DNA from: a virus
Virus record (IMG/VR): IMGVR_UViG_3300033149_001514
Location: 1 to 55,965 of that record
DNA: 55,965 nucleotides
Strand: one strand, 5' to 3'
The notes under the pieces were generated by a model that was not told the origin of the DNA, searched no databases, and saw nothing but the letters and a program-made list of their open reading frames with translations. How positions within the stretch are numbered: position 1 is the stretch's first letter; each line of letters starts with the position of its first letter. Shown here in pieces: positions 8,896-31,066 of this stretch. The translations under genes and the position numbers were made by a program.

Positions 8896-8940
8896 AAACC
8901 AACCAACCACCAACCAACCAAAATTAGCAAGGAGTAAAAA

Positions 8941-9563: not shown

Positions 9564-9577
9564 AACCCCAGCAACCC

Positions 9578-9613
9578 CCGCTGGGGTATGTATGTTACCC
9601 CAGCGGTTTTTTT
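9578..9613 (+). terminator. rho-independent terminator
   Basis: An 11-bp perfect stem (CCGCTGGGGTA / TACCCCAGCGG) with a 7-base loop is followed by seven T residues. An overlapping alternative stem (CCCCAGC / GCTGGGG, from about 9566) could form first, so an antiterminator-like switch is possible. Confidence 0.8.
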
Positions 9614-9656
9614 ACGGCACAGGACGCTAAAAATCATATTGTAGAGGAGCTAAAAA

Positions 9657-9878: not shown

Positions 9879-9906
9879 GCCCAGCCTTAAAAAAAAGGAG
9901 TGTAGG

Positions 9907-10131
9907 ATGGACAGCATTAGAAACGCATTAGAGAACTTGGGGTTGAAAGTGGAGCGTGTTACAGAAGCCAGAATAGTAGCAACGGCAATCGAGCGGACTT
10001 TGACAGGACTAGACCAAGCCACAGCCGACACTCTAGACCAGATTCTGGAATATTGGGCTACTGAGAATTGGGGCGAGTACGCAACCTATGCGGTGGTCTC
10101 ACCAACTGTAATCGAAGTGGATTTAGACTAA
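9907..10131 (+). CDS. small hypothetical protein
   Basis: A 74-residue protein from ATG 9907, chosen because AAAAAAGGAG lies 8 bases upstream; a longer reading from 9838 overlaps the previous gene and lacks such a site. The product alternates helix and strand (LENLGLKVERVTEARIVATA, later AVVSPTVIEVDLD). No family recognised. Confidence 0.6.
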   Translation: MDSIRNALENLGLKVERVTEARIVATAIERTLTGLDQATADTLDQILEYWATENWGEYATYAVVSPTVIEVDLD

Positions 10132-10142
10132 AAGGAGTTTAG

Positions 10143-10205
10143 ATGACAATTGCCATATACTACCTACCGCCCCACGCACTAAAAGCGTATTGCGGAATTT
10201 ATTAG
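10143..10205 (+). CDS. 20-residue ORF
   Basis: The ATG follows AAAGGAG by 5 bases, 11 bases after the preceding stop. The peptide is MTIAIYYLPPHALKAYCGIY. The strong ribosome binding site in an operon of small genes is the only support. Confidence 0.35.
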   Translation: MTIAIYYLPPHALKAYCGIY

Positions 10206-10229
10206 AAGAGATTAGACAAGGAGTAAAAA

Positions 10230-10577
10230 ATGAACGAGCGAACCGCAGGTGTAGCAGATACCATTGAACGATTAGACAAGTCGGAGGACATTGTGGAATA
10301 CGCACGATATCGCACGGTAAGCATTTTCGAAACGACAAATAAAGACAAAATGATTATTAGCACAATGCGAAGTTTCTGGACATACACAGACCGCCCGGTT
10401 TCACTAAACGATTGTACGCACAGCCGTTCAAGAATAGGTCGTGTAACGCCCGAAAAAGCCATAGCCATATTAGATTGGCTAGAAAAGAACGGATTCGATA
10501 TACAGCCCAAGATTTCCGCCGATGGTACGGTATGGATAAACGCAGAGGACACAAAAGAATGGAGCGCTACAGTGTAG
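10230..10577 (+). CDS. hypothetical protein, HTH-like C-terminus
   Basis: A 115-residue protein behind AAGGAG. The C-terminal half (VTPEKAIAILDWLEKNGFDI, then ISADGTVWINAED) has the helix-then-strands order of a small winged helix, but I cannot place it in a family. The N-half is charged. It lies mid-operon. Confidence 0.55.
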   Translation: MNERTAGVADTIERLDKSEDIVEYARYRTVSIFETTNKDKMIISTMRSFWTYTDRPVSLNDCTHSRSRIGRVTPEKAIAILDWLEKNGFDIQPKISADGTVWINAEDTKEWSATV

Positions 10578-10594
10578 TAAAAATCGATTCTAAA

Positions 10595-10649
10595 AGGCGG
10601 GCATGGCGCAAGCCTATCAATTATAACCAACGCCGTCTACCGCCCGCCT
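10595..10649 (+). other. inverted repeat and shared CCCGCCTAACACG motif
   Basis: AGGCGGGC (10595-10602) pairs with GCCCGCCT (10642-10649). The right arm continues as CCCGCCTAACACG, which also occurs at 52518-52530 just before the convergent replication genes. There is no T-tract, so it is not a classic terminator. Confidence 0.4.
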
Positions 10650-10708
10650 AACACGTTGTAACATGGTTGTAGAAACGGACAGAATACATTTAGAAAAGGA
10701 GAGCGGAA

Positions 10709-10927
10709 ATGAACCCCATAAACGACCTAATTTTTGCGCTGAAGAAATTCGAAGAATGTAATACGGCGAGCGAGTTATCAGAAGCCGTATTCGATGCTAT
10801 GTGCGCCGCAGATGAGCTTAAGGTAGAGTTAGCCCATATTGAAGAAAGAGCTGACAACCTTGAGCGTGCGGAAGCGGAACTGATAAATGAAGCTCGCGAC
10901 CTGTGCGAATTGGTGCGAGACTTATAG
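10709..10927 (+). CDS. acidic coiled-coil protein (paralogue pair, member 2)
   Basis: A 72-residue acidic helical protein (about 19 Asp/Glu against 7 Lys/Arg) with heptads in VELAHIEERADNLERAEAEL. AAAGGAGAG precedes the ATG. It is similar in length, composition and layout to the protein at 9657-9878, so the two probably arose by duplication. A terminator follows 10 bases after the stop. Confidence 0.6.
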   Translation: MNPINDLIFALKKFEECNTASELSEAVFDAMCAADELKVELAHIEERADNLERAEAELINEARDLCELVRDL

Positions 10928-10937
10928 CCCTACAAAG

Positions 10938-10965
10938 CGGGGGTGCGGTGCTGCCCGCACCCCCG
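10938..10965 (+). terminator. strong G/C hairpin
   Basis: CGGGGGTGCGG pairs with CCGCACCCCCG over 11 bases and is followed by AATTTAAT. The A/T run is weak as a U-tract but the stem is very stable. It is directly followed by the 20-bp palindrome at 10967-10986. Confidence 0.65.
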
Positions 10966-10966
10966 A

Positions 10967-10986
10967 ATTTAATGTGCACATTAAAT
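10967..10986. promoter_or_regulatory. perfect 20-bp palindrome (operator candidate)
   Basis: ATTTAATGTGCACATTAAAT is a perfect dyad. Its 16-bp core TTAATGTGCACATTAA is repeated exactly at 31404-31419. It lies between a terminator and the ribosome binding site of the next gene, where a repressor site would be expected. Confidence 0.6.
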
Positions 10987-11011
10987 CGGGTAGACAAGGA
11001 GCAAAGCGAAT

Positions 11012-11209
11012 ATGGCTAAACGAATAATGGTGGTTAAGACCGAACAGACTTACAGACATCAGATCGAGTGCCGATATTGCGGGTTGCTGTTCTCGGAAGA
11101 GACCAATTGCCCCGTGCCAACAGACAGGCTTTACCGGAGGCGAGACGAGCATGTAAGGTTGAGCCACAGCAGGGAGTACTGGAATACGTGGGTGAAGCTT
11201 AACGACTAG
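11012..11209 (+). CDS. C2H2-like zinc-finger protein
   Basis: A 65-residue basic protein with CRYCG at about residues 20-24, a further Cys (NCPVP), and two histidines in EHVRLSH, a C2-(C)-H2-like arrangement. AAGGAG precedes the ATG. It is probably a small DNA- or RNA-binding protein. It is the first gene after the palindrome, so it could be controlled by it or act at such sites. Confidence 0.6.
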   Translation: MAKRIMVVKTEQTYRHQIECRYCGLLFSEETNCPVPTDRLYRRRDEHVRLSHSREYWNTWVKLND

Positions 11210-11226
11210 ACATAGGAGAGATAAAA

Positions 11227-11550
11227 ATGACAGCGTTTACACCAGAAGATTTTCGGATGAACCTGGAAGTAAAAAATAATATTAGCAAGAAGCAGTTAGC
11301 AGAGAGGATTTACGGCGGGATAACTTACGATACGGCATTGCCCCAGCAGTGGATAACATGGGCAAGCAAGCTGAGCGTGCTGGCAGGAGACTATAAGGAC
11401 ATGGAGTTCTTTTGTCAGCACTTCGTGTGGTTATATCCGCATGGTAATGTAATGGGGCAACCCGCCCCGCTAACGCTGGAAGCGTGCGATGTGCTAGAGC
11501 AAATAATCGAAGAGACCAAAAATAAGGTATTAGGAGGTGTAGCATGGTAA
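11227..11550 (+). CDS. hypothetical protein
   Basis: A 107-residue soluble protein with Trp-rich helices (LPQQWITWASKLSVLAGDYKD). TAGGAGAG precedes the ATG. Its last 7 bases overlap the next gene. No domain is recognised. Confidence 0.6.
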   Translation: MTAFTPEDFRMNLEVKNNISKKQLAERIYGGITYDTALPQQWITWASKLSVLAGDYKDMEFFCQHFVWLYPHGNVMGQPAPLTLEACDVLEQIIEETKNKVLGGVAW

Positions 11551-11756
11551 GCATTGGAAGATACCCGCTACTTCAGGCAATCTATGCAGACCGGGATACG
11601 GGCATAATGCAAGCGTATTTCCAGACCAAGGGAACGGGGCGATGTATCATTAAGGTAGTTATGTACCAAGACCGATATTGCCCCCCGCATGTAGAGTATT
11701 TAACGCAGGAAGAATACTTGGCGGAATGCGGTCACAATACGCTAGAGGAAGCTTAA
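11544..11756 (+). CDS. hypothetical protein
   Basis: A 70-residue protein overlapping its predecessor by 7 bases, with TAGGAGG about 7 bases before the ATG. The sequence reads as a small alpha/beta domain (GTGRCIIKVVMYQDRYCPP) with an acidic C-terminal helix (LTQEEYLAECGHNTLEEA). Not recognised. Confidence 0.6.
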   Translation: MVSIGRYPLLQAIYADRDTGIMQAYFQTKGTGRCIIKVVMYQDRYCPPHVEYLTQEEYLAECGHNTLEEA

Positions 11757-11774
11757 AAAAAGGAGCTAAAGACA

Positions 11775-12209
11775 ATGGCAGATTTTATCCGAGACATGGG
11801 CAATATAAACACCGCCATAGAGGACATGCGAGAAGAGCTTGAAGACTGGCTCATTGCCCTACAACAGCAGAATTATTGGGATATGTACATGCCAACAACG
11901 GGGTGCTACATAGAAGTCCGCCTTCGATATGTGGAGGGCAATATGTACCACCACAGCGGTAGCCCACAATACGACCAAGACCACAGAGGGGCATGGGCGT
12001 ATGGTGTTATAACGCCTGATAATGAGCCAGCGGTTGTGCTGGATGAGATGGTGGAGGAGCTTAAAGAAAACTACCATATATGGCTTATGGAGACCATGAG
12101 CAGGGAAGAGAAAAGCGAGCTGGACAGATTGGAGCATGGAGACCAGCTTGGCGACTTGGAAAGAGAGAATTACCAGTCTACAAAAAACGCTGGTGCGGGA
12201 AGCGTATAA
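11775..12209 (+). CDS. hypothetical acidic protein
   Basis: A 144-residue protein with helical N-terminus (IEDMREELEDWLIALQQQNY), a beta segment (CYIEVRLRYVEGNMYH) and charged C-terminal helices (MSREEKSELDRLEHGDQLGDLE). AAAAGGAG precedes the ATG. No known family recognised. Confidence 0.6.
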   Translation: MADFIRDMGNINTAIEDMREELEDWLIALQQQNYWDMYMPTTGCYIEVRLRYVEGNMYHHSGSPQYDQDHRGAWAYGVITPDNEPAVVLDEMVEELKENYHIWLMETMSREEKSELDRLEHGDQLGDLERENYQSTKNAGAGSV

Positions 12210-12265
12210 TGCCGTATGCTGGGAATATTGGAAACCCCAAGCTTAACAAATTTGGAGGAACCCCT

Positions 12266-12559
12266 ATGGAAGAAATCCATATAACCGACTTGCGAAAATT
12301 CCTTAACGACAAAGAAGAACAGCGTAATGAAGAGGAGAGCACCAACCAAAAACCAAATGCCCGTTATGCCCCACCGCCGCCCACTATACCCATGCTTATC
12401 CGGGATGTTCTGGTCGCTTATTTCTCCAATAAGCAAACCCTATCCCATAAGCACCCCAAGACCATTAACTCCCTCCTATATTTTGCCCTGTGCTACATTA
12501 CCGCCCTGCTACTGGCAATCTTTACCTACCACTTGCTTGTAGCTCTGTTTATAGGATGA
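12266..12559 (+). CDS. C-terminally anchored membrane protein
   Basis: A 97-residue protein from ATG 12266, placed 7 bases after GGAGG; a longer in-frame reading from 12080 overlaps the preceding gene and is not supported. It has a charged N-half, a proline run (APPPPTIPM) and one or two C-terminal hydrophobic segments (LLYFALCYITALLLAIFTYH, then LLVALFIG). Just upstream is a stray iteron (AAGCTTAACAAATT, 12239-12252). Function unknown; it is the last gene before a terminator. Confidence 0.6.
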   Translation: MEEIHITDLRKFLNDKEEQRNEEESTNQKPNARYAPPPPTIPMLIRDVLVAYFSNKQTLSHKHPKTINSLLYFALCYITALLLAIFTYHLLVALFIG

Positions 12560-12610
12560 TTATTACCCCATGAGTAGCCAGTGTACTTCTGGCTACTAAG
12601 CACTTCGTAG

Positions 12611-12650
12611 CCCCGCCGGGCGCAAGAAAGTCAGCCTCCGGCGGGGTTTT
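12611..12650 (+). terminator. rho-independent terminator
   Basis: CCCCGCCGG (12611-12619) pairs with CCGGCGGGG (12638-12646), followed by TTTTAAT. It ends the 8794-12559 operon. A second hairpin (12573-12597) precedes it. Confidence 0.8.
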
Positions 12651-13534
12651 AATATCTCAAAGAGGGAAGCGGGTGAGCAAGGATATACCCCCACCCTAAG
12701 CGGGAAAGCTTAACAAAATCCCCCACCCTGCTCCCACCGGATAGGGGCAAAAAGAGGTTCATCCCCCACCGAGGATGCTTTTTACATGGGCGGGTTGTAG
12801 CTCATCCCCCACCATACCCCCGAGCGGGGTGGCTCAAGAAAATCCCCTCGAAAGAGGGAGCGGAAAAATCCAAAGAAAGGACGCTCTAAAAACGCTCTTA
12901 TATAACTCCCTCTTTACAAAAAAACAACTAGGACTGGACGCTGTTTTAAGAGGATTTGCGGGGGCATAGATACCCCGCCCATATAACCAATAAAAGACCC
13001 CTCATTCCACCGCCTAGGACGCTGTATAGTACCCTACCCCAACTACCAGCATGAGACCCCCTGCCCTACCACATGCAACTACTACCAGCACGCTATCCCC
13101 CATTCGTGACGTACCCCACCCCATACCCCGCCCATGCAATACCCCCCACCCCCTATTCCCCCCACGCCCCACCCCGTGCTCACCCAGCACGGTACGCTGT
13201 ACCGACATATACCCCTAGACGCTCTGTCATCCGATTATTAGCGTGTTACACAAGCGTTTACAGCACAGGCATATTTATTATCGGAGGATAAATAATTCCC
13301 AGCACAGACGCTTGCGTCCAGCCCTAAGCGGTTTGCCATTCTGCTGACGGTATTGCGGGAGCGTGACGGATTTTCGTTGTTGGGAGAACGGACGGACGCT
13401 AAAACCACCGCCCCCCATCAAAATTAGTGGCGGAAAAAATACGAAAAGACAGGTGCGGGTGAGATTTTTTTTAAAAAAAAATTTGGGAAAAAAATATGCA
13501 TGAGAAAAGGGGGACAGGGCAAAAGGGTTGGGTC

Positions 13535-13562
13535 TTGTCAAACGGGGGAACGGTGGTAAAAT
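13535..13562 (+). promoter_or_regulatory. promoter TTGTCA-N16-TAAAAT with extended -10
   Basis: TTGTCA (13535-13540) and TGGTAAAAT (-10 at 13557-13562) are 16 bases apart. GGTGGTAAAATA matches the core of the promoters at 2361 and 55303. It would start the operon that begins at 13662 and may run into the modification island. Confidence 0.65.
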
Positions 13563-13609
13563 AACCAGTAGGGAAGGTGATAAAAAAAATAGGTGAAGGA
13601 GGTCGGGAA

Positions 13610-13645
13610 ATGGCGGGGGGTCTACGCAAGCGGGTATCAGGATAA
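13610..13645 (+). CDS. possible 11-codon leader peptide
   Basis: AAGGAGG (13596-13602) lies 7 bases before an ATG that reads MAGGLRKRVSG and stops 16 bases before the next gene. The best ribosome binding site of the region serves this mini-ORF rather than the larger gene, which suggests a leader or translational coupling. Confidence 0.3.
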   Translation: MAGGLRKRVSG

Positions 13646-13661
13646 ATACGAGGAGGCGGAA

Positions 13662-14054
13662 ATGGGCAGGAAGGGAAGAAAGGGGGTGCGGGTGCGGTAT
13701 GCGGTAAAGCCCACGAGGAATGAGCTGGTGTGGGAAAGAGATGAACTGTGCGATGTGTGTCGTGTGCTGTTCGCCGAAAACAATCATATAACGAATAGCT
13801 GTCATGTCGGGTCGGAGCGTCATCACGGGCTTTTCAAATGTATGAAAGACGTGCCGACACTAGACCTTAAATATAATCTGTTTCTGGTCTGTAAATCCTG
13901 TCACGAGAAAAGAGTGTGGGGAGACCGCATAAAATACCTGCTGTGGGAATTGCAATGCAGAAGGTATGGGCGAGAGGTGATGATGAACTGGTGGGAGAGT
14001 GTGCCTTTTTCAGATAAGCCGAGATTTTGGCTGTTGGGAGGTGGAGATGAGTAA
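13662..14054 (+). CDS. HNH-like zinc-binding protein
   Basis: A 130-residue basic protein from ATG 13662 (AGGAGG 6 bases upstream; an in-frame GTG at 13593 has no site). It has CDVC, a central HVGSERHHG segment and a C-terminal CKSCHEKR. This order of two Cys pairs around histidines fits an HNH/treble-clef fold, but the canonical HNH spacing is imperfect, so nuclease activity is unproven. It is the first gene of the middle operon. Confidence 0.55.
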   Translation: MGRKGRKGVRVRYAVKPTRNELVWERDELCDVCRVLFAENNHITNSCHVGSERHHGLFKCMKDVPTLDLKYNLFLVCKSCHEKRVWGDRIKYLLWELQCRRYGREVMMNWWESVPFSDKPRFWLLGGGDE

Positions 14055-14274
14055 ATTAATTTATCCGGAGTATTACTGCGGTACAGCCGTTCCTATGTCC
14101 GGTGGAACAGGGTGGCATAATTGGGGGCTTGTGTCCTGTGATGCGGTGGTCGAGTATGTGGACGGGCAGGTAAGAGGAGGAGTGAATTGGCGGTGCGGGT
14201 ATTGTAGGCAGGTCAATGAATTTATCCACACTTGCTGCAAGCATTGTGGAGCAGAACAAACGGAGGCAAAATAA
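14047..14274 (+). CDS. zinc-ribbon protein
   Basis: A 75-residue protein starting inside the previous gene (8-base overlap) after GGGAGG. The C-terminal half carries CGYC and CCKHC pairs, a zinc ribbon. The N-half has scattered Gly and Trp. Function unknown. Confidence 0.6.
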   Translation: MSKLIYPEYYCGTAVPMSGGTGWHNWGLVSCDAVVEYVDGQVRGGVNWRCGYCRQVNEFIHTCCKHCGAEQTEAK

Positions 14275-14275
14275 C

Positions 14276-14500
14276 ATGATTGATATTAGCAAGTGGCTGT
14301 TCAGACTGGATAAAGGCTCGCTCCCGATGGGGTATGTGGAACTAGTACTTATAAGGATTGGGGATGGGCTGTATAGGGCTATGGAAGATACTTTTATCAG
14401 CGATGTTGATTTGAAGTTTGACCAAGAGAGCAAAAGATATAAGTTCTGCATTAAAGGGTCTTGTATAAAAATTACAGAATGCGAGGTAGAGCATGAATAA
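14276..14500 (+). CDS. hypothetical protein
   Basis: A 74-residue protein from ATG 14276 with CGGAGG about 9 bases upstream. It reads as a small alpha/beta domain (YVELVLIRIGDGLYRAMED; then YKFCIKGSCIKITECEVEHE). It overlaps the following gene by 8 bases. No family recognised. Confidence 0.55.
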   Translation: MIDISKWLFRLDKGSLPMGYVELVLIRIGDGLYRAMEDTFISDVDLKFDQESKRYKFCIKGSCIKITECEVEHE

Positions 14501-14741
14501 AAGAATGATTGCTGTGGAGTCGATATCACTTGGGGAGCGGCTACTGCTCGCCATGCACAGGAAGAACATTAGTGTGGAAGAGATGATATATAATACAACC
14601 CTGTCCGCTAAAATAGTCGATAAAATATTGAAGGACGATATATGGGATATAAAAATCGGGCGACTGATAGAAGCGTTTCGTGCGCTGGATATGGATTTGG
14701 GGGTAGTCATAAAATTGGAGGACACTAAAGATGCCTGTTGA
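14493..14741 (+). CDS. HTH (XRE-like) regulator
   Basis: An 82-residue protein whose middle (LGERLLLAMHRKNISVEEMI, then LSAKIVDKILKDD) has the helix spacing of a Cro/XRE helix-turn-helix, ending in a short strand region (LGVVIKLED). It overlaps both neighbours. It could regulate the adjacent promoter at 13535 or the palindromic sites, but no target is evident. Confidence 0.5.
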   Translation: MNKRMIAVESISLGERLLLAMHRKNISVEEMIYNTTLSAKIVDKILKDDIWDIKIGRLIEAFRALDMDLGVVIKLEDTKDAC

Positions 14742-15090
14742 TTACAGCAAATACCCGCCTAATTGGAAAACAGAAATTGTGCCCGCCATATTGGCAAGGG
14801 CGGGTGACAGGTGCGAGTTCTGCGGGTTAAAGAACGGCTCCTATGTCTGGTCTTTTAAGGTTGATTTGCAGGAGAATAGCACGGGAAAGAAATATACGAC
14901 CACATTATGGTCGCTGGATAAAAGGCAGTACAATATGTTCAAATCAGCTAGGGGTCTGAAACGGGTGAAGGTGATTCTGACAGTTGCCCATTTAGACCAC
15001 GACCCTGAGAATTGGGAAGTAACAGTAGATAGGTTGAAGGCACTTTGCCAAAGGTGTCATTTTCAGTATGATAGGGAGCATAAGAAGTGA
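14731..15090 (+). CDS. HNH endonuclease-family protein
   Basis: A 119-residue protein with the HNH layout: RCEFCG near residue 27, an intervening insertion, then VAHLDHD near 88 and LKALCQRCHFQYD near 105. Cysteine pairs bind the structural zinc and the AHLDHD/H residues would bind the catalytic metal. Proteins of this kind are common in phages and may nick DNA in packaging, recombination or homing. It overlaps the preceding gene by 11 bases. Confidence 0.75.
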   Translation: MPVDYSKYPPNWKTEIVPAILARAGDRCEFCGLKNGSYVWSFKVDLQENSTGKKYTTTLWSLDKRQYNMFKSARGLKRVKVILTVAHLDHDPENWEVTVDRLKALCQRCHFQYDREHKK

Positions 15091-16576: not shown

Positions 16577-17318
16577 TTTGCTGGACAAGGCACAGGAGAT
16601 AGACGGAGAACAATTACGAATTATTTATGTGCGGTTAGACGACCTCACATTTTGGGCTGATAATCCCAAAAAGCACGATATAGATGGGCTGATTGAGAGT
16701 ATGCTTATGCACGGGTTCAGGGATGCTCCAATATTTGACGATAAACTCAATGACGGAAAAGGGGGCATTGCGGGGGGGAATGGCAGGCTGGAAGCTCTTA
16801 TGGTTATGTATGAGGGGGGGCATCACGACCCGCCAAGGGGAATATTATTGGATAAAGACGATGGTATGTGGTGTATGCCAATTCAATTCGGTATCAATGC
16901 CGAATCGGAAGAACTTGCGGAAGCCTTTGCGGTAGACCATAATAACTTAACGCTTGGCGGTTCGGGTCTTGGGGCGGTAGATATAGCCCTGCTGTGGAAT
17001 GACGATTATCCTGTATTGCTGGAAAAGCTGGATACCAAGAATGTGGTTTCCATTACCGATGAAGATATGAAAATTCTACGGCGGTGGCAAAAACCGCCGA
17101 GCCTTAAAGACTTGGAAGGCGAATTGGGCGAAGATGTGGAAGGGGAGGATGACCCAATGCTGTCGTTCAGGGTTAGCAGGGAATTGTACGAATTGTTTTG
17201 GGGAATAATTGGGCGTGGAACAAACGAAGAAATGAGAGAATCCCTTACTCATGTGCTAAAGGTATACGAGGAAGTGAAGGATGATTATCCAAGAAAGACC
17301 AATGAAGATACTGATTAG
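16560..17318 (+). CDS. ParB N-domain (ParB/Srx-like) protein
   Basis: A 252-residue protein. ATG 16560 is chosen because GGAGG lies 5 bases before it. The N-half shows the ParB/sulfiredoxin-like fold: DNPKKHDIDGLIESMLMHGF, PIFDD and the GGNGRLEAL loop, which in ParB binds CTP or supports nuclease activity. The C-half is acidic and helical with no clear HTH. It overlaps the transglycosylase gene by 38 bases, so it probably works with DNA modification or DNA partitioning/nicking. Confidence 0.75.
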   Translation: MESRTNLLDKAQEIDGEQLRIIYVRLDDLTFWADNPKKHDIDGLIESMLMHGFRDAPIFDDKLNDGKGGIAGGNGRLEALMVMYEGGHHDPPRGILLDKDDGMWCMPIQFGINAESEELAEAFAVDHNNLTLGGSGLGAVDIALLWNDDYPVLLEKLDTKNVVSITDEDMKILRRWQKPPSLKDLEGELGEDVEGEDDPMLSFRVSRELYELFWGIIGRGTNEEMRESLTHVLKVYEEVKDDYPRKTNEDTD

Positions 17319-18213
17319 TTATGCGTATTTTCAGAAGGTGGATTTAGAAGCGGTAATACAAAGGGCGTTTGGAGACAACAGACCCATTATTTTTGCGGAC
17401 AGCGGGGCTGTGACCGCTTTTACTAGAGGAAAGAAAATATCGGTACAGGAATATTCGGATTGGCTTTTAAAATGGAAGCACCTGTTCTCGGTGTACGCCA
17501 ATTTGGACGTTCTAACAAATGTGCAAGAAGGATTGGATAATTTGCAGTATATGGAAAGTCGTGGGTTAGACCCCCTGCCTGTATTTCACTCTAGTGAAGA
17601 CTTTGCCATTCTGGAAGCCTTTTTGGATAAGTACGATTATGTCGCTCTTGGAGGCGTGGCTATGAATTACCGCACTTCCGCAGACTTTTTAAAACGGTGG
17701 TTTCTAAAATGTTTCAAGCTGGCGGAAGCTACCAATACCCGCATACATGGTTTTGGAATATCGGCTTGGGATATTCTCAAAATGTTTCCTTGGTTTTCGG
17801 TGGATAGTTCTACTTGGGGCGGCGGTTTCCGTTTCGGAGGAGTGCCTTTATTTAATCCAGACAAAGGCACATTTCAGACTATTCAGTTAGGCAATCGAAA
17901 GAAGGTATATAAGAACGCAGAAATAATTAAGCGGTACGGGTTCGACCCTGAAGAATTTGCAGACAGAGAAAAAAACACCCGCAGTGCCAATGCTTCCCTC
18001 TCCGCTTTGTCTTATATGCTGGCAGAGGAATGGCTGTGGAAATATTGGGGTAAAGAACAGCCGAGATATTATATGGCAGATTCCGCTTCCGGCATGGAAA
18101 ATTTTAGGCTTGCCCAGCAAGGTATTTCTATATTTTTGGTAGAGGTAAGACAGGAAATGGGTGATATAAAATGCTTGGAGGACAGAAAGAGAAATTGCAG
18201 TAATAGCAATTGA
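17281..18213 (+). CDS. dpdA: DpdA-like DNA-guanine transglycosylase
   Basis: Predicted to exchange guanine in phage DNA for a 7-deazaguanine base. It has a TGT-like TIM-barrel pattern: DSGA at residues 40-43 (TGT uses DSGG), a strand with YANLDV near 72, ALGGVAMNYR near 122-131, GFGIS near 157 and a second Asp in VDSSTW at 175, the likely nucleophile. At 310 residues it fits short phage DpdA proteins, without the tRNA-binding parts of bacterial TGT. The ATG at 17281 follows GAGGAAG; a later ATG at 17302 is possible. It sits directly before the queuosine-type genes. Confidence 0.8.
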   Translation: MIIQERPMKILISYAYFQKVDLEAVIQRAFGDNRPIIFADSGAVTAFTRGKKISVQEYSDWLLKWKHLFSVYANLDVLTNVQEGLDNLQYMESRGLDPLPVFHSSEDFAILEAFLDKYDYVALGGVAMNYRTSADFLKRWFLKCFKLAEATNTRIHGFGISAWDILKMFPWFSVDSSTWGGGFRFGGVPLFNPDKGTFQTIQLGNRKKVYKNAEIIKRYGFDPEEFADREKNTRSANASLSALSYMLAEEWLWKYWGKEQPRYYMADSASGMENFRLAQQGISIFLVEVRQEMGDIKCLEDRKRNCSNSN

Positions 18214-18242
18214 CATTTTGAGCTTAGCGAAGGAAGGGATGG

Positions 18243-18524
18243 ATGATTATAGCGGTTGATATTGATGGCATTTTGACTTTAGAAAAGGATGGTCACGATT
18301 ATGAAAACAGAACTCCTAACCCCATTGCCCGAACTTTTTTGTTTCAGGAAATAAAAAAAGGAAATTCGATTTTGTATTACACCGCCCGACCTGAAATGGA
18401 CAGGGCTGTCACTATAAGATGGTTAGAAAAGCATGGCTTTCCTAATGCCCCGTTATTTATGGGTAAGCCACAGGCAGACTTCTACGTAGATGACAAGGCA
18501 GTGAGAGGATTTGATGAAATATGA
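18243..18524 (+). CDS. HAD-like phosphatase
   Basis: A 93-residue HAD domain: DIDGIL near residues 6-11 (D-x-D nucleophile motif), YYTARPE near 45 (motif II Thr) and YVDDKA near 82 (motif IV acidic pair). It is a compact HAD of the kind seen in phage nucleotide or capsule genes. GAAGGAAGG lies upstream and it overlaps the next ATG (ATGA). In this island it may dephosphorylate a modification precursor or nucleotide; this is inference. Confidence 0.7.
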   Translation: MIIAVDIDGILTLEKDGHDYENRTPNPIARTFLFQEIKKGNSILYYTARPEMDRAVTIRWLEKHGFPNAPLFMGKPQADFYVDDKAVRGFDEI

Positions 18525-19171
18525 AAAAAATAGTGCTTCTGTATTCAGGAGGAATGGACAGTCTCATAGCTTATCGCTGGTATCACGAACCCGAAACACT
18601 TTACGTAAATTTAGGCACTCGGTACGCTGGGGCGGAAATAGAAGCTGTCAAGAAAACCCTACCAGATACAACCATCATAAATATCCCCGAGATGGGAAGG
18701 TTTGAACTGGACAATGCTCACTTTCCCGGCAGGAATAGTTTGCTGGCTTGGTGCGGTGCAAGTGTAGGGGGCGTGCGAATTATCTTGGTCACACAGAAAG
18801 GGGAAATGACTGGCACTAAGGATAGGACAAACGCCTTTTTTAAGCAAATCAGCCATCACCTTTCTTATGTATTCGAGAGGGAAATAATTGTAGAGACCCC
18901 GTTTGCCAATATAGATAAGACCGAAATGGTGGAGTGGTATTTAAAATCTGGCGGGGAATTAGACTTATTATATAAGACCATAGGGTGCTACCGAGGAGCA
19001 CAAAGACCATGTGGTAATTGCTCGGCTTGCCTGCGCAGATACGTTGCTTTTATGAATAACGGTCTCGACCCGCAATTTCAACTATCACAGGAGATAAAAA
19101 TCATCTACCGAAAGAAGTTACACACTTATCCAATATATAGACAAAAAAGGATGCTACGATGGCTGACCTGA
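18521..19171 (+). CDS. queC: QueC-like 7-cyano-7-deazaguanine (preQ0) synthase
   Basis: ATP-dependent enzyme that turns 7-carboxy-7-deazaguanine and ammonia into preQ0. The PP-loop SGGMDS is at residues 9-14 and RNSLLAW near 68 matches the QueC core. The zinc site is C then CGNCSAC near 156-170. At 216 residues it is of usual QueC length. It overlaps genes on both sides. A second QueC domain lies in the Gat-QueC fusion at 20680, so the two copies probably act in successive steps. Confidence 0.85.
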   Translation: MKKIVLLYSGGMDSLIAYRWYHEPETLYVNLGTRYAGAEIEAVKKTLPDTTIINIPEMGRFELDNAHFPGRNSLLAWCGASVGGVRIILVTQKGEMTGTKDRTNAFFKQISHHLSYVFEREIIVETPFANIDKTEMVEWYLKSGGELDLLYKTIGCYRGAQRPCGNCSACLRRYVAFMNNGLDPQFQLSQEIKIIYRKKLHTYPIYRQKRMLRWLT

Positions 19172-19716
19172 AATTGTTAAATGTGGGATGCGGAAATGAT
19201 CTAAGAGAGGGATATTTAAATGTAGATATCTTGCCACCGCCTTTGCTTACAGGAAACATGATGTACAAAAGGGCAGACGGCGTTAATTTATTTGAAGCGG
19301 TTGGGGGTGGGTGGGATGGCATATTGTCTATTTATATGGTAGAGCATGTGCCAGTCCGTCATCTTTACACCATGTTTTATAATTGGAACAAGTGTCTAAA
19401 AATGAACGGAACTGTGCGCATTGTTGTGCCCAGTCTTGTTGCTATGATTGACCTTTACCAAGATTCCAGCCCGTTAGACCTATCTGTTTTCAGGCGGTTA
19501 ATTTACGAGGGTATGGGCGGGCCAGAAGAAACAGGGGTAAGCCCTCACACTGCATTATGGACGGTTGAATGGTTGGAACATTTTATGACCGCAGAAGGGT
19601 TTAACCTAACCCAGTATAAAGACAAAGTCGGAAGCCACTGCCTTGGGCTTGTGGCTGAATTTGTTAAGGTTACTGATTCCAATACTACCGAGGACGAAAA
19701 TATATGGGTCTGGTAA
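19159..19716 (+). CDS. SAM-dependent methyltransferase (type 11-like)
   Basis: A 185-residue class I methyltransferase with motif I LNVGCGND at residues 7-14, an acidic residue after strand 2 (NVDIL), an YMVEHV segment (EHV motif) and LKMNGTVRIVVPS, typical of the predicted SAM-dependent methyltransferase family. It overlaps queC and the radical-SAM gene. It is not required for preQ0 or G+, so it may methylate a modified base or precursor. The substrate is unknown. Confidence 0.8.
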   Translation: MADLKLLNVGCGNDLREGYLNVDILPPPLLTGNMMYKRADGVNLFEAVGGGWDGILSIYMVEHVPVRHLYTMFYNWNKCLKMNGTVRIVVPSLVAMIDLYQDSSPLDLSVFRRLIYEGMGGPEETGVSPHTALWTVEWLEHFMTAEGFNLTQYKDKVGSHCLGLVAEFVKVTDSNTTEDENIWVW

Positions 19717-20678
19717 AAGCAGAAATACTATGGACAAGAAAGTGTCCGCTGTCTTGCTCGTATTGTGCCATGCCAAACGACACGGAACGAGCACCTGTCG
19801 CAAGCATGATTGCAGGATTATCCAACCTTAAAGAATTGGGAGTTGGTTTTATAGCCATATATGGGGCTTCTCCGCTTTACGACTTTGAGGGGTTGCCAGA
19901 ATATATCAAGGCTGCTGAAGACATGGATATATTAACTACCGTTATTACAGACGGGGTTCAAGCAGGGCATCGTGGATTACTTGAAGAACTTTATGATAGC
20001 GGATTGCGGTCACTTACCATGTCTTACGACTTTGTTCCTTACGATAATGCTTCACGAATCAAAACAGGCAGGGCTTTTGCTCTTGTGGATTGGTGGCTGG
20101 GGTTGCCTGATATCAGAGATGTCGAAATTGTAGCAACCGTAACGAGCGAAAATTACGACACGATTATAAATGCTCTTCCCCAAATTTTTATGAATTATCC
20201 AAAGTTGTATTTTAGTTTTGATTTTGTCCATTTTGACCGCATGAACCCCGGAACAAAATGCAAGGGGCAGGCAAACGACTTGGCTCTAACCAACCAGATG
20301 GTAGCCGATTTTTGTAATGCCATGTTGGAATTCAAAATAGTAAAGGATTTTAACATTCATGCTTCTCTGGACGTGCTAAGAAAATTTGCTGACAACCCAA
20401 CCATAGTGACCGAGTATTCTTGGTCATGTGCCACCGACAATTTTCCAAGTTGGGTGACCATTGACGCCGATGGAACGGTGTTGCCCTGTGATGATTTTCA
20501 TGTAGACCGCTCTCTTAAAGTATGGGATATTGACGAACTAAAATGGACATTGTGGAAGCACAGAAACAAAAAAGACGTAGAAGATTTTTGCAACGGGTGT
20601 GCTTGGAACACTCATATTGATGCCGACCTTATCAAAGGCGGTCAAGTCTCTTTTTTGGGATACGTTCACAAGGAATAA
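19704..20678 (+). CDS. radical-SAM protein with SPASM/Twitch-like C-terminus
   Basis: A 324-residue protein. CPLSCSYC at residues 14-21 is the CX3CX2C site for a [4Fe-4S] cluster that cleaves SAM. The C-terminal region has SC, then IDADGTVLPC and CNGC, the cysteine pattern of a SPASM/Twitch auxiliary cluster. It is not QueE, which lies at 23252. Archaeosine synthesis in tRNA can use a radical-SAM partner (RaSEA), so a role on a 7-deazaguanine intermediate is plausible, but the family has not been identified. It overlaps the methyltransferase gene. Confidence 0.8.
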   Translation: MGLVKAEILWTRKCPLSCSYCAMPNDTERAPVASMIAGLSNLKELGVGFIAIYGASPLYDFEGLPEYIKAAEDMDILTTVITDGVQAGHRGLLEELYDSGLRSLTMSYDFVPYDNASRIKTGRAFALVDWWLGLPDIRDVEIVATVTSENYDTIINALPQIFMNYPKLYFSFDFVHFDRMNPGTKCKGQANDLALTNQMVADFCNAMLEFKIVKDFNIHASLDVLRKFADNPTIVTEYSWSCATDNFPSWVTIDADGTVLPCDDFHVDRSLKVWDIDELKWTLWKHRNKKDVEDFCNGCAWNTHIDADLIKGGQVSFLGYVHKE

Positions 20679-20679
20679 A

Positions 20680-22026
20680 ATGTGCGGAATTTACGGAGGT
20701 TTTGCCTTTAACAATAGGGGCATGATTATTATTAAATCTTTCAAAAGCAGGTTGGAAGAAACAGCCCGATTGCGGGGCAGGGATGGTCATGGCAGGTTCG
20801 AGTTCAAGAACGGATATATAGGGGTGTCGAGAGCACAACCCTTGCCGGAAGGCGAGGAAATTCCCCTGCCGCTAAAACACGATGGGCTGGTAATGGTTTT
20901 CAATGGAACAATATCAAACGACAAGGAATTAGCGGAAAGGCACGGGTTTGATAGGGAGTCCGTAGATACTTGGACGGCTATTCGGTTGTGGAGCAAAAAA
21001 GGGTTGGATGCGTGTGAGGAGTTCGTTGGTGGTTACGCTTTTGGGGTATACGATGAAGTGACCGAAACGCTTACAGTGGCAAAGAATTTTAAGACACTGT
21101 GGTATGTGCTAACTGATGACTGCTTTTTGTTTGCCAGCGAAAAGGAATTTTTAGAAACAGACGATAGCAAATTCGGGCGATATGTACCAAGTCGTTTCCC
21201 ACAGAATACCGGATTGGTGGTAAATGAGACCTCCCATCGGGAACGGTCTCTGTCTAGAAAATATTGGTCTCATACACCAGATTTAGACAATAACAAGGCA
21301 GTCATCGTAACCAGTGGGGGAATAGATTCTATCACCTCCGCTTATATAGCCAAGTTTGTTCACAAAAAAGAAATTGCGCTGATAAACTTCGATTATGGAC
21401 AGTTAGCCAGCGAGCGTGAATGGGAAGCCGTTAAATATGCAGGGGAGTCAATAGGATGCCCCTGCTTGCAGGTAGACTTATCGCTCCTAGGTGCTTGGGG
21501 AGCAAGCCCGCTAACAGACCCGACCATAGAATTGCCGTTGGGAATGAAGTCGGCAGAAAGCACATTATGTTGGACGCCAGCGAGGAACATGCTGATGATA
21601 GCTTATGCCAGCGCATACGCCGAAGCTCATGGGATAAAATACATTTATTTTGGAAATAACATGGAGGAAGAAGCAACAGGATATTCCGACAACGATTTAG
21701 AATTTATCTACCTGTATAACCAGCTTCTGGACTACGGCACACTCAAAGGAATAAAAATAAAGCGGGCATTGGGTAGGCTTATGAAGCCGGAAATTTTACA
21801 GGTAGGGGCATACTTGGGGGTGGACTACGACAGGACGTGGTCGTGTGATTTAGGCGGAGAAAAACCGTGTGGGGTATGCGGATGTTGTACTACCCGCCAA
21901 TATGCTTTTAAACGGGCTAATTTGCCCGATGGTCAGACTTACGAAAACCCCCTGCAAGATATTTATCCTTGGGAGGGGCATAAGGAATATGACGTGGAGG
22001 AATTACTTGACAGATTACACGATTGA
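20680..22026 (+). CDS. gat-queC: Gat-QueC fusion (glutamine amidotransferase + QueC), archaeosine-type
   Basis: A 448-residue two-domain enzyme. The ATG at 20680 is fixed because class II amidotransferases need Cys2 (MCGIYGG). The amidotransferase domain (about 2-190) has RGRDGHG and FNGTISN. The QueC domain has SGGIDS near 212-217 and zinc ligands in CDLGGEKPCGVCGCC near 389-403. In some archaea and in phage 9g, Gat-QueC turns preQ0 into the archaeosine base by adding ammonia to the nitrile. It starts 2 bases after the radical-SAM stop. Confidence 0.9.
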   Translation: MCGIYGGFAFNNRGMIIIKSFKSRLEETARLRGRDGHGRFEFKNGYIGVSRAQPLPEGEEIPLPLKHDGLVMVFNGTISNDKELAERHGFDRESVDTWTAIRLWSKKGLDACEEFVGGYAFGVYDEVTETLTVAKNFKTLWYVLTDDCFLFASEKEFLETDDSKFGRYVPSRFPQNTGLVVNETSHRERSLSRKYWSHTPDLDNNKAVIVTSGGIDSITSAYIAKFVHKKEIALINFDYGQLASEREWEAVKYAGESIGCPCLQVDLSLLGAWGASPLTDPTIELPLGMKSAESTLCWTPARNMLMIAYASAYAEAHGIKYIYFGNNMEEEATGYSDNDLEFIYLYNQLLDYGTLKGIKIKRALGRLMKPEILQVGAYLGVDYDRTWSCDLGGEKPCGVCGCCTTRQYAFKRANLPDGQTYENPLQDIYPWEGHKEYDVEELLDRLHD

Positions 22027-22888
22027 ATTAGACGGGGATTTCAAGTTTATTGTTCTCACCTTAACAAGGCGTTGCCCGTTGCGGTGTTCTTATTGCAATT
22101 ATGCCAGAAACGATATGCCGGAAATGCCGTTGGAGTTTTGGATAAGCGTGCTTGATAAATTTCCAAATGCAGAATATGTGCTTTTTGGTGGTGACCCTGT
22201 TGAGTATAAACATTTTTGGGATTTGTTGGAAATAATGAATAAAAGAGAGACGGGATATACTGTATCGACAACGGGCATAAATTTACAAGATGAGGATTTT
22301 GACAAAATGGTTTCTGTAAGTGTATCGCTGGATACGCTGGATACAAAAATCACGAAGCCGGAGCACAGGAAAAGCATACGGGGCTGGGAGGTGGTATTGC
22401 TCAGAAAAGAAAATCCAAAGGGTGTAGATTTTGCGGGTATTACCATGACCAAGGACAACATAAACGAGATGCCTTTTTTGGCGGAGAGTTTGCGAGACAC
22501 GACCTTCTTAGGGTGTTTCAATGTGGTTCAAACCAAGACGGAATTAGGCAAAGACACCGACTTAAAACCAACCCGTAAGCAGTTGGAAAAGTTTGTTGAA
22601 TTTGTTAAGGAAACCTATCATTGGGGAGTGTACGCAGACCCGTTAGAGTTCTACGAATTATTGCCTACCAAAGGGATTGCGCAGGACTGGTTTTGTAAGG
22701 GGGAAGTTCTTTTGACCGTAGACAGTGATGGCACGGTAGCCCCGTGCTATCAAGTAAAATCCAACGGGCACACGATGGCAGACTACAAGCACGCCCAGAA
22801 ATGCGAGGGGTGCTTTTTAAATTGTTTTTGGGTGTGGACAGAAATGCCTCAATTTTGTATATGTCAGCAAGGAGAAAAAAATGTTTGA
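21989..22888 (+). CDS. second radical-SAM protein with SPASM-like C-terminus
   Basis: A 299-residue protein from ATG 21989, preceded by AAGG; it overlaps Gat-QueC by 38 bases. CPLRCSYC at residues 29-36 is the CX3CX2C cluster site, VLFGGDPVE follows as the GGE-like SAM-binding segment. The C-terminus has FCKGEVLLTVDSDGTVAPC, KCEGC, NC and FCIC, a rich SPASM-type set of cysteines. It is distinct from QueE. SPASM enzymes modify peptides or small molecules. The substrate is unknown, but the position between Gat-QueC and QueD suggests a 7-deazaguanine. Confidence 0.8.
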   Translation: MTWRNYLTDYTIELDGDFKFIVLTLTRRCPLRCSYCNYARNDMPEMPLEFWISVLDKFPNAEYVLFGGDPVEYKHFWDLLEIMNKRETGYTVSTTGINLQDEDFDKMVSVSVSLDTLDTKITKPEHRKSIRGWEVVLLRKENPKGVDFAGITMTKDNINEMPFLAESLRDTTFLGCFNVVQTKTELGKDTDLKPTRKQLEKFVEFVKETYHWGVYADPLEFYELLPTKGIAQDWFCKGEVLLTVDSDGTVAPCYQVKSNGHTMADYKHAQKCEGCFLNCFWVWTEMPQFCICQQGEKNV

Positions 22889-23255
22889 AATAAAAAAGAC
22901 TTTCCGGTTCGAGGCGGCTCATCGGTTGCGGAATCTGGAAGCCGGACACAAATGTGCCCGTATGCACGGACATAACTACGAGGTTACCCTGACTCTGGCA
23001 GTGGATTCAGTGCGTGAATTAGAGAATGGTTTTGTTTATGACTACGGTAAGTTAAAGCCGTTTGGCGATAAAATAAAAGCATGGTACGACCATCGGGTTT
23101 TGAACGAGGTAAAGCCCTTTGATATATACCAACCGAGTGCTGAATTTATGGCGTATGCCTTTTACAATATTGCCGTCAATTTGTGTTTCATTCCTAATGT
23201 TGTGGCGGTTGGCGTTAGTGAGACCCCCGACACCTATGCGGAGTACCGACCATGA
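22881..23255 (+). CDS. queD: QueD, 6-carboxy-tetrahydropterin synthase
   Basis: Converts 7,8-dihydroneopterin triphosphate to 6-carboxy-tetrahydropterin, the second step to preQ0. Zinc ligands are H14 (EAAHRL), H29 and H31 (MHGHNY), and the catalytic Cys is C25. At 124 residues it has normal QueD length. AAGGAG precedes the ATG. It overlaps the radical-SAM gene by 8 bases and queE by 4. Confidence 0.93.
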   Translation: MFEIKKTFRFEAAHRLRNLEAGHKCARMHGHNYEVTLTLAVDSVRELENGFVYDYGKLKPFGDKIKAWYDHRVLNEVKPFDIYQPSAEFMAYAFYNIAVNLCFIPNVVAVGVSETPDTYAEYRP

Positions 23256-23866
23256 GCGAATATCAAGTTATTGATATGTTTAATAGCATTCAGGGCGAAG
23301 GTACTTACCAGACAGGGCTTTGGTGTACCTTCATCCGGTTGGCTGGCTGTGATATTGGTTGCGAATGGTGTGACACGAAAGAAAGTTGGAGCAAAGCCAA
23401 TGGTATAAAGATGACCGCCAAGGAAATTGCCGAAAAGGTTACCGCAAAGGCAGTTGTTATTACGGGTGGCGAACCGACATTATGGGATTTAGACCCGTTA
23501 TTAAAAGAGCTGTCGAACTTCAACTATTATGTTATGCTGGAAACAAGCGGGTATCACGCTTTGCGAGGCGAAAGGACACCGCAATGGATTACGGTTAGCC
23601 CCAAGTTCGCAGTTGACTATCAAATAAACGCACAATGGTATGATTTAGTTGCAGAGTGGAAATGGGTCGTGGATGAAAATTTTGACCTTAAAAGGGCTGT
23701 TGCATACGAGGACAAGAGTCGCATTATATCCCTTGTCAGTTTAATGCCAGAGGGAAGCCCGCCCAAGCCGGAGAACATAAATCTTGCCCTCGAAATACTG
23801 GAAAGTGTGAATAAATTAAATTGGCATTACTCACCGAGAATTCAATATAGGATAGGTGTCAAATGA
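23252..23866 (+). CDS. queE: QueE, 7-carboxy-7-deazaguanine synthase
   Basis: Radical-SAM enzyme that contracts 6-carboxy-tetrahydropterin to 7-carboxy-7-deazaguanine. The cluster site is CDIGCEWC at residues 33-40 (CX3CX2C), preceded by SIQGEG and followed by ITGGEPTLW, a QueE hallmark. At 204 residues it has the expected length. It overlaps queD and folE by 4 bases each, so the four precursor genes are translationally coupled. Confidence 0.93.
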   Translation: MSEYQVIDMFNSIQGEGTYQTGLWCTFIRLAGCDIGCEWCDTKESWSKANGIKMTAKEIAEKVTAKAVVITGGEPTLWDLDPLLKELSNFNYYVMLETSGYHALRGERTPQWITVSPKFAVDYQINAQWYDLVAEWKWVVDENFDLKRAVAYEDKSRIISLVSLMPEGSPPKPENINLALEILESVNKLNWHYSPRIQYRIGVK

Positions 23867-24432
23867 ACGTAGATAAGACAAAAATCAAAGTAGCAACTGA
23901 AATGCTGTTAGAGGCTTTGGGGGAGGACTTATCCAGAGAAGGTTTGAAAGATACTCCCATGCGAGTAGCAAATGCGTGGGAGGAATTTTTACAGCCGGAC
24001 GAAAAGCTTAATACCACCTTCCAAGAAATAAAAGTAAATTCCATGATAATGGTTCGTGGCATTACTGGCTGGTCTTTTTGCGAGCATCACATTATTCCAT
24101 TTTCGTATGTGGCAACGGTGGGATATATTCCAAAGGAAAAGGTTCTTGGGTTGTCAAAAATTCCAAGGGTGGTTCGTCACGAAGGCAGACGGTTGAGAAC
24201 CCAAGAAACCATGACAAGGGATATTATTGACCATCTTAAAAATTTGACAGAGACGGAAGATATAGCTGTCCGGTTAGAGGGCGTTCATTTGTGTATGGTA
24301 ATGCGGGGAGTAAAGGCTCAGGGGGCGAGCATGGTTACTCAGGAATTATCCGGTGCTTTTATGGATGACGGGGTAGTAAGAAATGAATTTATGATGATGG
24401 CGGATTCTCATGGTTTACTATTGCAACCGTAG
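23863..24432 (+). CDS. folE: GTP cyclohydrolase I
   Basis: Opens GTP to dihydroneopterin triphosphate, the first step of 7-deazaguanine synthesis. CEHHIIPF (C73, H75, H76) and GVHLCMVMRGV (C144) give the zinc site and catalytic region. At 189 residues it is of usual length. It overlaps queE at the start and the packaging gene at the end, so the island joins directly onto the structural operon. Confidence 0.93.
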   Translation: MNVDKTKIKVATEMLLEALGEDLSREGLKDTPMRVANAWEEFLQPDEKLNTTFQEIKVNSMIMVRGITGWSFCEHHIIPFSYVATVGYIPKEKVLGLSKIPRVVRHEGRRLRTQETMTRDIIDHLKNLTETEDIAVRLEGVHLCMVMRGVKAQGASMVTQELSGAFMDDGVVRNEFMMMADSHGLLLQP

Positions 24433-29862: not shown

Positions 29863-30459
29863 ATGGCACGAGTAATCCTAGTAATAGGTGTTGGTGCTAG
29901 TGGAACATCAGCCACAGCAGGCATCATTCACAAGCTGGGTATTCCTATGGGGAAGAAAAAGTTTTTAGGAAAGCACCCCGCAGGATTTGATTTATACGAA
30001 GATACCCGTTTCTACGGGCGTTTTCATTCTCAACCGAGTTTTGCAATACCCTACTCTTTACACAGACAAGAGCCTATTTTTGGTATAAAGAATACGGTTA
30101 TGGGGCTTCACTTGGCAGACAAGGTTATACCCACGATATTAAACTATCATGATGAACCACGTATTGTCTTATGTCACAGACAGGCTCTTGGCTCTATGAA
30201 GGCTAGAGCGGAAGGCAGATGTCCGCCCGGCAAAAAGTTTTCAAAGGCAGAAGCTATTCAATGGTGGCTTGAAGCCCAGCGAAAACTTATTGAGCAAATA
30301 CAAAAAATAGACTTTCCAATACTTCATTTGCAGTTCGAAGACCTGTTGGAAAATCCTTTATTACGTACCAAGGATTTAGTTGAATTTTGTTTTTGGGGTA
30401 TGGATAAGCCCGATGATGAAATCGTTGTGAAAGCGTCTCAGCACATAAGGCAGAAATGA
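29863..30459 (+). CDS. sulfotransferase-like protein
   Basis: A 198-residue protein with a P-loop-like PAPS 5'-phosphosulfate-binding motif near the N-terminus (VIGVGASGTSATAGIIHKLG), then LYEDTRFYGRF and a helical C-half with HLQFEDLLENP. This matches the general sulfotransferase fold of phage and bacterial sulfotransferase-family proteins. It would transfer sulfate from PAPS to a glycan or other acceptor. It begins a three-enzyme block inserted in the head genes and overlaps the next gene by 4 bases. Confidence 0.65.
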   Translation: MARVILVIGVGASGTSATAGIIHKLGIPMGKKKFLGKHPAGFDLYEDTRFYGRFHSQPSFAIPYSLHRQEPIFGIKNTVMGLHLADKVIPTILNYHDEPRIVLCHRQALGSMKARAEGRCPPGKKFSKAEAIQWWLEAQRKLIEQIQKIDFPILHLQFEDLLENPLLRTKDLVEFCFWGMDKPDDEIVVKASQHIRQK

Positions 30460-31043
30460 ATAAGAAAGGTATCAAGGAAGAAATAAACGCAATAGTAAGA
30501 AAGGATATTGCAAAGGGAACTGGCAAAGTTCCTTTTGGCTGGAACGGAAAAAGGGTTGCCAGAGTTGCGGATATTGCATGTCGAGAACACACAGGAGACA
30601 TTGTTGAAATTGGGGCTTATAAAGGAAGGACAACCGCCGAATTACTGAAAGTGGCTAATAGGTATGACCGCAATGTAATCGTGATAGACCCTTGGAAAAA
30701 GGGAACACAAAATTGCGTAGGCGGGGAATACGAAGAGTTTCTGCACAACACAAGACACTGGCACAATAGGCTTATCGTTCACCGAATGAGGTCTGATGAC
30801 CCACAGCTTAAAAACTGGATACCCGCCATGCGTTTAGCCTTTGCTTTTGTGGACGGGCTTCACACTTTTGAAATGTGCTACCATGACATTATGCTGGTAG
30901 GACAAGCGGGGATAATCTGTGTCGATGATATTAATCGCAAGAAATGGAAGTTGCTGGACGCTCTTGCTAAAGCCGCAATAAATTTAGACCGTTGCGAGGT
31001 GACTAATCTTGCCGTAAACGCAAGGGAAGGCTACATACTCTAG
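30456..31043 (+). CDS. SAM-dependent methyltransferase (Methyltransf_24-like)
   Basis: A 195-residue class I methyltransferase: VEIGAYKGRTTAEL near residue 50 is motif I, VIVIDPW near 72 is motif II, and a later FVDGLHTFEMCYHD has the acidic residue and histidine typical of the sugar/antibiotic Methyltransf_24 group. These often methylate sugars. It lies between a sulfotransferase-like and a glycosyltransferase gene, which suggests a glycan substrate. Confidence 0.75.
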   Translation: MNKKGIKEEINAIVRKDIAKGTGKVPFGWNGKRVARVADIACREHTGDIVEIGAYKGRTTAELLKVANRYDRNVIVIDPWKKGTQNCVGGEYEEFLHNTRHWHNRLIVHRMRSDDPQLKNWIPAMRLAFAFVDGLHTFEMCYHDIMLVGQAGIICVDDINRKKWKLLDALAKAAINLDRCEVTNLAVNAREGYIL

Positions 31044-31066
31044 TAATTGAGGAAGGGATATATTTT

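Follow-up and report, generated by a model that had tools for sequence, protein, structure and literature searches.

The window examined here, positions 1 to 55,965 of the IMG/VR virus record IMGVR_UViG_3300033149_001514 (55,965 bases), carries a 7-deazaguanine island in which genes for two radical S-adenosylmethionine (SAM) enzymes (rSAM1 and rSAM2), a paralogue of QueC (QueC1), a small HAD-fold protein, and a methyltransferase (MT) stand among those for known 7-deazaguanine enzymes. Gene content, co-occurrence, gene fusions, motif changes, and protein fold support the rSAM, QueC1, HAD, and MT genes well as a module. Judged from its sequences, this module likely tailors a DNA-destined 7-deazaguanine, yielding a base beyond 2'-deoxy-7-cyano-7-deazaguanine (dPreQ0) and 2'-deoxyarchaeosine (dG+). 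Functionally, the extra genes are part of the island, as an earlier note on this DNA had suggested, because their neighborhoods are conserved in approximately 35–40 distinct contigs and absent from 84 other loci of DpdA, the DNA guanine transglycosylase homologue. Given this membership, the possible new hypermodified base raised in the note is a reasonable expectation.

The contigs compared are uncultivated and partly fragments, and the scans depend on conserved peptide patterns, with E-values that are relative to the candidates. Alignments were used as queries; single-sequence scans with rSAM1, rSAM2, and the amidotransferase-fused QueC (Gat-QueC) had yielded little (one match for Gat-QueC). 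When IMG/VR was scanned with the rSAM1 alignment, 29 loci were obtained, and the 19 strongest (L089–L107, E 1e-28 or better, including one near-identical contig pair and one contig, L105, that ends after QueE) all lay within 7-deazaguanine islands. Every strong rSAM1 relative adjoined QueC1, usually together with a small HAD gene, and DpdA was present wherever the contig was complete. The usual order was QueD-QueE-x-FolE-rSAM1-QueC1-HAD-(MT)-DpdA, often with overlapping gene ends, and the islands were flanked by a replicative-helicase-like gene and by beta clamp- and uracil-DNA glycosylase/polymerase-like genes (named by eye). The search for a shared gene order suggested in the earlier note thus found the radical SAM/QueC1/HAD/DpdA cassette recurring in other virus contigs. 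Among 84,980 species genomes, the rSAM1 scan returned one locus, on a contig of a Sulfuricurvum metagenome-assembled genome that carries the same cassette, and tblastn of 50,697 isolate-phage records found no rSAM1, either with the protein of the window or with that of L098.

The reverse scan, with QueC1 as the query and a threshold of 180 bits, retrieved 32 distinct contigs, all with DpdA and 26 with an rSAM gene; four of the six lacking rSAM end just upstream of QueC1, so that the count among contigs not cut there is 26 of 28. Taken together, the rSAM1- and QueC1-fetched sets comprise 40 distinct contigs besides the window, with DpdA in 40, HAD in 37, and rSAM in 34. Meanwhile, none of the 84 other DpdA loci, mostly fetched with DpdA, has an rSAM gene besides QueE, and the only DpdA-fetched locus with an extra rSAM, L073, is also the one with QueC1. 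Fisher's test for 26/28 versus 0/84 gives 2e-23, a value uncorrected for relatedness that overstates the evidence because the counts include related contigs and fragments. In the trees, the rSAM1 and QueC1 members are widely spread; phage rSAM proteins without this linkage (L108, L110, L115–L117) form a clade of their own. At least eight contigs (L097, L099, L107, L136, L146, L151, L178, and L198) encode HAD and QueC1 as a single fused protein, and a fusion in the opposite order occurs in L020, alongside a canonical QueC. In the literature searched for rSAM enzymes with DpdA, no such module was described. As further features of these islands, L073 contains a tandem pair of DpdA-type genes (9024–10954), L045 has a myo-inositol-1-phosphate synthase gene (8809–9984, 3e-30) between a QueC1-like gene and DpdA, and the HAD proteins at L092 12601, L095 11723, and L096 12385 bear a C-terminal cysteine-rich, zinc-ribbon-like extension.

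The extra genes listed in the earlier note are real, but its inventory overlooked QueC1 and HAD, the most telling partners. The window in fact holds two QueC-type genes, the stand-alone QueC1 (18521–19171, + strand; QueC 2.5e-18), a PF06508 paralogue with a remodeled nucleobase pocket, and Gat-QueC, the true start of which is the Met-Cys at 20680. The HAD gene (18243–18524, + strand) encodes a small phosphatase-like protein of the QueC1 module (LNS2/HAD 9e-8, phrog_1238 3e-18). QueC proteins are marked by SGGxDS, YxQxHxxE, VPxRN, YPDC, and a zinc motif, and in the Escherichia coli enzyme Tyr35, Arg99, Tyr131, and Tyr189 are essential, Tyr35 and Tyr131 being needed for preQ0 formation (PMC13329287). 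In the pocket of QueC and Cap9, a Tyr stacks on the base and an Asp reads its Watson-Crick edge (PMC13279940). All 41 QueC1 proteins retain SGGxDS, Arg99 (VPxRN), the Watson-Crick-edge Asp, and the CxxCxxC zinc cysteines, and 40 of 41 retain Tyr189. However, Tyr35 is replaced in 40/41 and Tyr131 in 41/41 by aliphatic residues or Thr, with an aromatic residue at position 131 in 0/41. The canonical QueC proteins of other DpdA islands keep Tyr35 in 32/32 and Tyr131 in 31/32, and Gat-QueC proteins in 9/10 and 10/10, respectively. Because the catalytic, Asp, and zinc motifs are invariant while the two tyrosines are lost, QueC1 probably still binds 7-deazaguanine and ATP, in an altered pocket.

A tree built from 62 QueC domains placed QueC1 in a clade apart from canonical QueC (100/100), with the rSAM1-linked members forming one subclade (97/83). 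Canonical QueC (PF06508 cluster 1) thus shares SGGxDS, PxRN, the Asp, the zinc motif, and CY with QueC1 but differs in both tyrosines and in clade. The protein-modifying Cap9 and QatC of the CBASS IV and Qat systems are, like QueC1, repurposed QueC folds; QatC replaces the Asp that QueC1 retains (PMC13279940), and their gene neighbors differ from those of QueC1, which adjoins DpdA, a DNA enzyme. Most isolate phages that we checked have the canonical pocket residues. Phage QueD-QueE-FolE sets with an altered-pocket protein (xxDKD) as the sole QueC and no DpdA or rSAM nearby were also seen (L149, L152–L154, L159, and similar). We know of no biochemical assignment for the altered-pocket QueC clade. 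The idea that altered-pocket QueC stops at 7-amido-7-deazaguanine (ADG) found no support in Campylobacter phage CP220, which has a near-canonical pocket, with Tyr35 and a Phe at position 131, although its group is reported to carry deoxy-ADG (dADG) (PMC6884629).

Gat-QueC (20680–22026, + strand) is a class-II glutamine amidotransferase with an N-terminal cysteine (Cys2) fused to QueC (GATase_7 2e-12, QueC 1e-44), and it begins with MCGIYGG. It shares 59% identity with its counterpart in L088, 64% with that in L120, and approximately 30–34% with the Gat-QueC of isolate phages. These two contigs and the window form a double type, in which rSAM1, rSAM2, Gat-QueC, QueC1, HAD, and DpdA occur together; the Gat-QueC alignment scan found no further contig of this type. 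An rSAM of the second type is present in 9 of 10 islands with Gat-QueC versus 5 of 31 without it, and in long rSAM1 contigs (48–104 kb) without Gat-QueC, QueC1 is the sole QueC. In L126 (5196–7361), an intein-like domain (Intein_splicing 5.7e-6) interrupts the QueC part of Gat-QueC.

As described in the earlier note, the open reading frames of MT (19159–19716), rSAM1 (19704–20678), and rSAM2 (21989–22888) are open on the + strand, and the latter two encode radical SAM enzymes, both above the Pfam Radical_SAM cut-off (3e-7 and 5e-11) with SPASM/twitch-like C-termini. rSAM1 represents an island-bound family, and rSAM2 is a second enzyme of this type, paired with Gat-QueC; despite its strong divergence, it groups with L088_9030 and L120_9612 (97/81). 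Their status as orphans was upheld, in that no curated rSAM family of NCBIfam reaches its cut-off (for example, PqqE scores 42 versus 381 bits), and among 19 members of the rSAM1 family the best curated-family match is no better than E 1e-16. Only C14-C18-C21 (CxxxCxxC), C242, C262, C296, and C299 are invariant cysteines in 19 aligned rSAM1 relatives, and these seven therefore leave space for one auxiliary cluster. An AlphaFold2 model of rSAM1 was of high confidence (pLDDT 93.5, pTM 0.91), and its closest solved folds, SuiB, viperin, MoaA, BlsE (TM 0.68), and PqqE, share the CxxxCxxC core at 12–18% identity; BlsE, viperin, and MoaA act on nucleosides or nucleotides. In Pfam, rSAM1 and rSAM2 matched Radical_SAM/SPASM and weak unrelated entries only, with no B12-binding domain, and the B12-type C-methylation considered in the earlier note is thus unlikely. 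The kinship that it raised with RaSEA, the archaeosine radical SAM lyase that acts on the 7-deazaguanine side chain, was likewise not seen, no RaSEA being named among the NCBIfam matches, although no direct comparison with RaSEA sequences was made; no ArcS was named among the Pfam matches of the island genes. Among predicted viral structures, the second rSAM1 match was BFVD A0A8S5QS09 (Myoviridae sp. ctgXL3, 571 aa), named 7-cyano-7-deazaguanine synthase, which may be an rSAM-QueC fusion. Campylobacter phage CP220 (L006) has five radical SAM genes together with amidinotransferase- and sugar-nucleotide transferase-like genes (8019–15050); with 24% identity and no DpdA annotated nearby, this cluster was rejected as a relative.

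MT, a small class-I SAM methyltransferase with an LNVGCGND motif, has no Pfam match of its own, and its AlphaFold2 model was unusable (pLDDT 40). The assignment made in the earlier note nevertheless holds through relatives of the same type in L144 (9246, phmmer 1.6e-11) and L073 (7916, identical in protein sequence to L096 11939), both of which pass Methyltransf_11. For METHYLTRANSFERASES, an MT-like gene was counted in 11 of 40 QueC1 islands versus 1 of 68 others, with seeds drawn from these same islands, and the bare motif gives 7 of 40 versus 1 of 68. Several unrelated families are represented, and most of the MT-like genes of QueC1 islands are backed by Pfam.

On the + strand of the window, positions 17302–24432 form one packed run of DpdA, HAD, QueC1, MT, rSAM1, Gat-QueC, rSAM2, QueD, QueE, and FolE. 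Adjoining ends overlap between HAD and QueC1 (4 nt), QueC1 and MT (13 nt), MT and rSAM1 (13 nt), Gat-QueC and rSAM2 (38 nt), rSAM2 and QueD (8 nt), QueD and QueE (4 nt), and QueE and FolE (4 nt); rSAM1 and Gat-QueC are separated by a 1-nt gap. Purine stretches resembling ribosome-binding sites lie ahead of the start codons at 19159, 20680, and 21989. The run contains the genes of a phage 7-deazaguanine DNA-modification island, namely, the DpdA-type transglycosylase (17302–18213, alternative ATG at 17281; phrog_887 1e-44, phrog_7068 6e-36) and, for 7-carboxy-7-deazaguanine (CDG), QueD (22881–23255; PTPS 1e-28, TIGR03367 2e-24), QueE (23252–23866; TIGR04322 7e-31, phrog_2076 6e-30), and the GTP cyclohydrolase I FolE (23863–24432; GTP_cyclohydroI 9e-56). 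The window also encodes the portal, tape-measure, and replication proteins of a tailed phage. For the gene at the terminase position, isolate phages offered one weak match, to a terminase large subunit, and the phage is therefore far from any isolate. Elsewhere, sulfotransferase-, methyltransferase-, and glycosyltransferase-like genes lie amid structural genes (29863–31813 and 37683–40952), and approximately 1.8 kb (7480–9260) has no convincing open reading frame and several short tandem repeats.

Two known systems resemble the island. The dG+ system of Enterobacteria phage 9g and the Queuovirinae (FolE-QueD-QueE-Gat-QueC-DpdA), of which the 9g Gat-QueC and DpdA function in E. coli, which makes the precursors, to give dG+, shares the precursor enzymes, Gat-QueC, and DpdA with the window, but is described without an rSAM beyond QueE and without QueC1-HAD (PMC6884629); the window departs from this gene set by QueC1, HAD, MT, rSAM1, and rSAM2. 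Mycobacterium phage Nadezda, which with Rosebush is of the dPreQ0 type, has a DpdA 40% identical to that of the window and the same frame, ParB-DpdA-x-QueD-QueE-FolE-x-terminase-portal. In the middle of this frame, the window has six genes, HAD, QueC1, MT, rSAM1, Gat-QueC, and rSAM2, whereas the Nadezda island has no extra rSAM, HAD, or MT annotated.

By the known pathway, FolE, QueD, and QueE convert GTP to CDG, which Gat-QueC in this phage would convert to preQ0 and G+, as its relatives do. QueC1-HAD-rSAM1-MT would modify the 7-position further, in parallel to or in sequence with Gat-QueC. QueC1 may adenylate the 7-carboxylate and couple a small amine-bearing group instead of simply forming the nitrile, and the 5'-deoxyadenosyl radical of rSAM1 could then take a hydrogen from the side chain, leading to rearrangement, decarboxylation, or bond formation. 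HAD might remove phosphate from an intermediate, MT would cap an exposed group, and rSAM2 could carry out a comparable step on the product of Gat-QueC; DpdA would put the completed base, or one of its precursors, in place of guanine in the phage DNA. With substrate, order of steps, and product all deduced from the genes, this specific chemistry is rather unlikely to be correct as drawn. More broadly, it is quite possible, if tentative, that a radical SAM enzyme makes a hitherto unknown 7-deazaguanine hypermodification from an intermediate of the repurposed QueC fold (QueC1-HAD), and that double-type phages run QueC1/rSAM1 and Gat-QueC/rSAM2 arms toward one doubly tailored base or two modified guanines. 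To our knowledge, no radical chemistry after QueE occurs in the 7-deazaguanine DNA bases known so far.

Several observations weigh against a tailoring module that yields a new base. The association counts are phylogenetically non-independent, and HAD or rSAM is missing from some QueC1 islands (L090, L122, and L134; L128). The fold of rSAM1 is as near to the peptide-modifying SuiB and PqqE as to enzymes acting on nucleosides or nucleotides, and it therefore leaves a nucleobase and a peptide substrate undistinguished. Furthermore, the altered pocket also occurs in a wider phage QueC clade without rSAM, in some cases as the sole QueC beside QueD, QueE, and FolE, so a new product does not necessarily follow from it, and the argument that its loss of tyrosines proves one is weakened. 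QueC1 and rSAM1 might instead provide another route to a known base (dG+, dADG, or dPreQ1), with QueC1 attaching an amino acid that the rSAM enzyme cleaves, as in archaeal ArcS/RaSEA. The catalytic motifs retained in QueC1 would suit this, as would the finding that most rSAM1 islands, in contigs of 48–104 kb, have neither canonical QueC nor Gat-QueC, for which something must substitute. However, Gat-QueC, the known dG+ enzyme (PMC6884629), is already at hand in the window, in L088 and L120, and in six further islands with an rSAM gene, and the NCBIfam matches name no RaSEA, so we consider this route unlikely.

That the product is a protein, QueC1 joining 7-deazaguanine to an N-terminus (for example, in counter-defense) and rSAM1 and MT modifying the conjugate, is suggested by the match of the QueC1 profile to Cap9 (7e-7), second to QueC, and by QueC paralogues repurposed for protein modification (PMC13279940, PMC13329287). 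Since every contig retrieved with QueC1 at more than 180 bits contains DpdA and tight cassettes such as L091 show no conserved partner protein, this appears quite improbable. Maturation of a ribosomally synthesized peptide or protein by the SPASM/twitch enzymes, with the island location incidental, would agree with the neighbors PqqE, SuiB, and SkfB in sequence and fold, but is very improbable given the strict linkage to QueC1 and DpdA, the lack of room for a precursor gene in cassettes such as L091, and the separate clade of unlinked phage rSAM proteins. Radical SAM and methyltransferase genes are frequent phage accessory genes and might have hitch-hiked from hosts with no role in the pathway; this is scarcely credible and already contradicted by the neighborhood data, as the gene order is kept across divergent contigs and the sole relative in 84,980 genomes sits in the same phage-type cassette.

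If the module does tailor a DNA-destined 7-deazaguanine as we propose, the recurring rSAM-QueC1-HAD cassette would widen the guanine chemistry of phages, and the QueC family would gain an unassigned group next to QatC and Cap9. It would also establish a family of rSAM enzymes whose nucleobase substrate can be tested, and could provide new means of protecting DNA against restriction.

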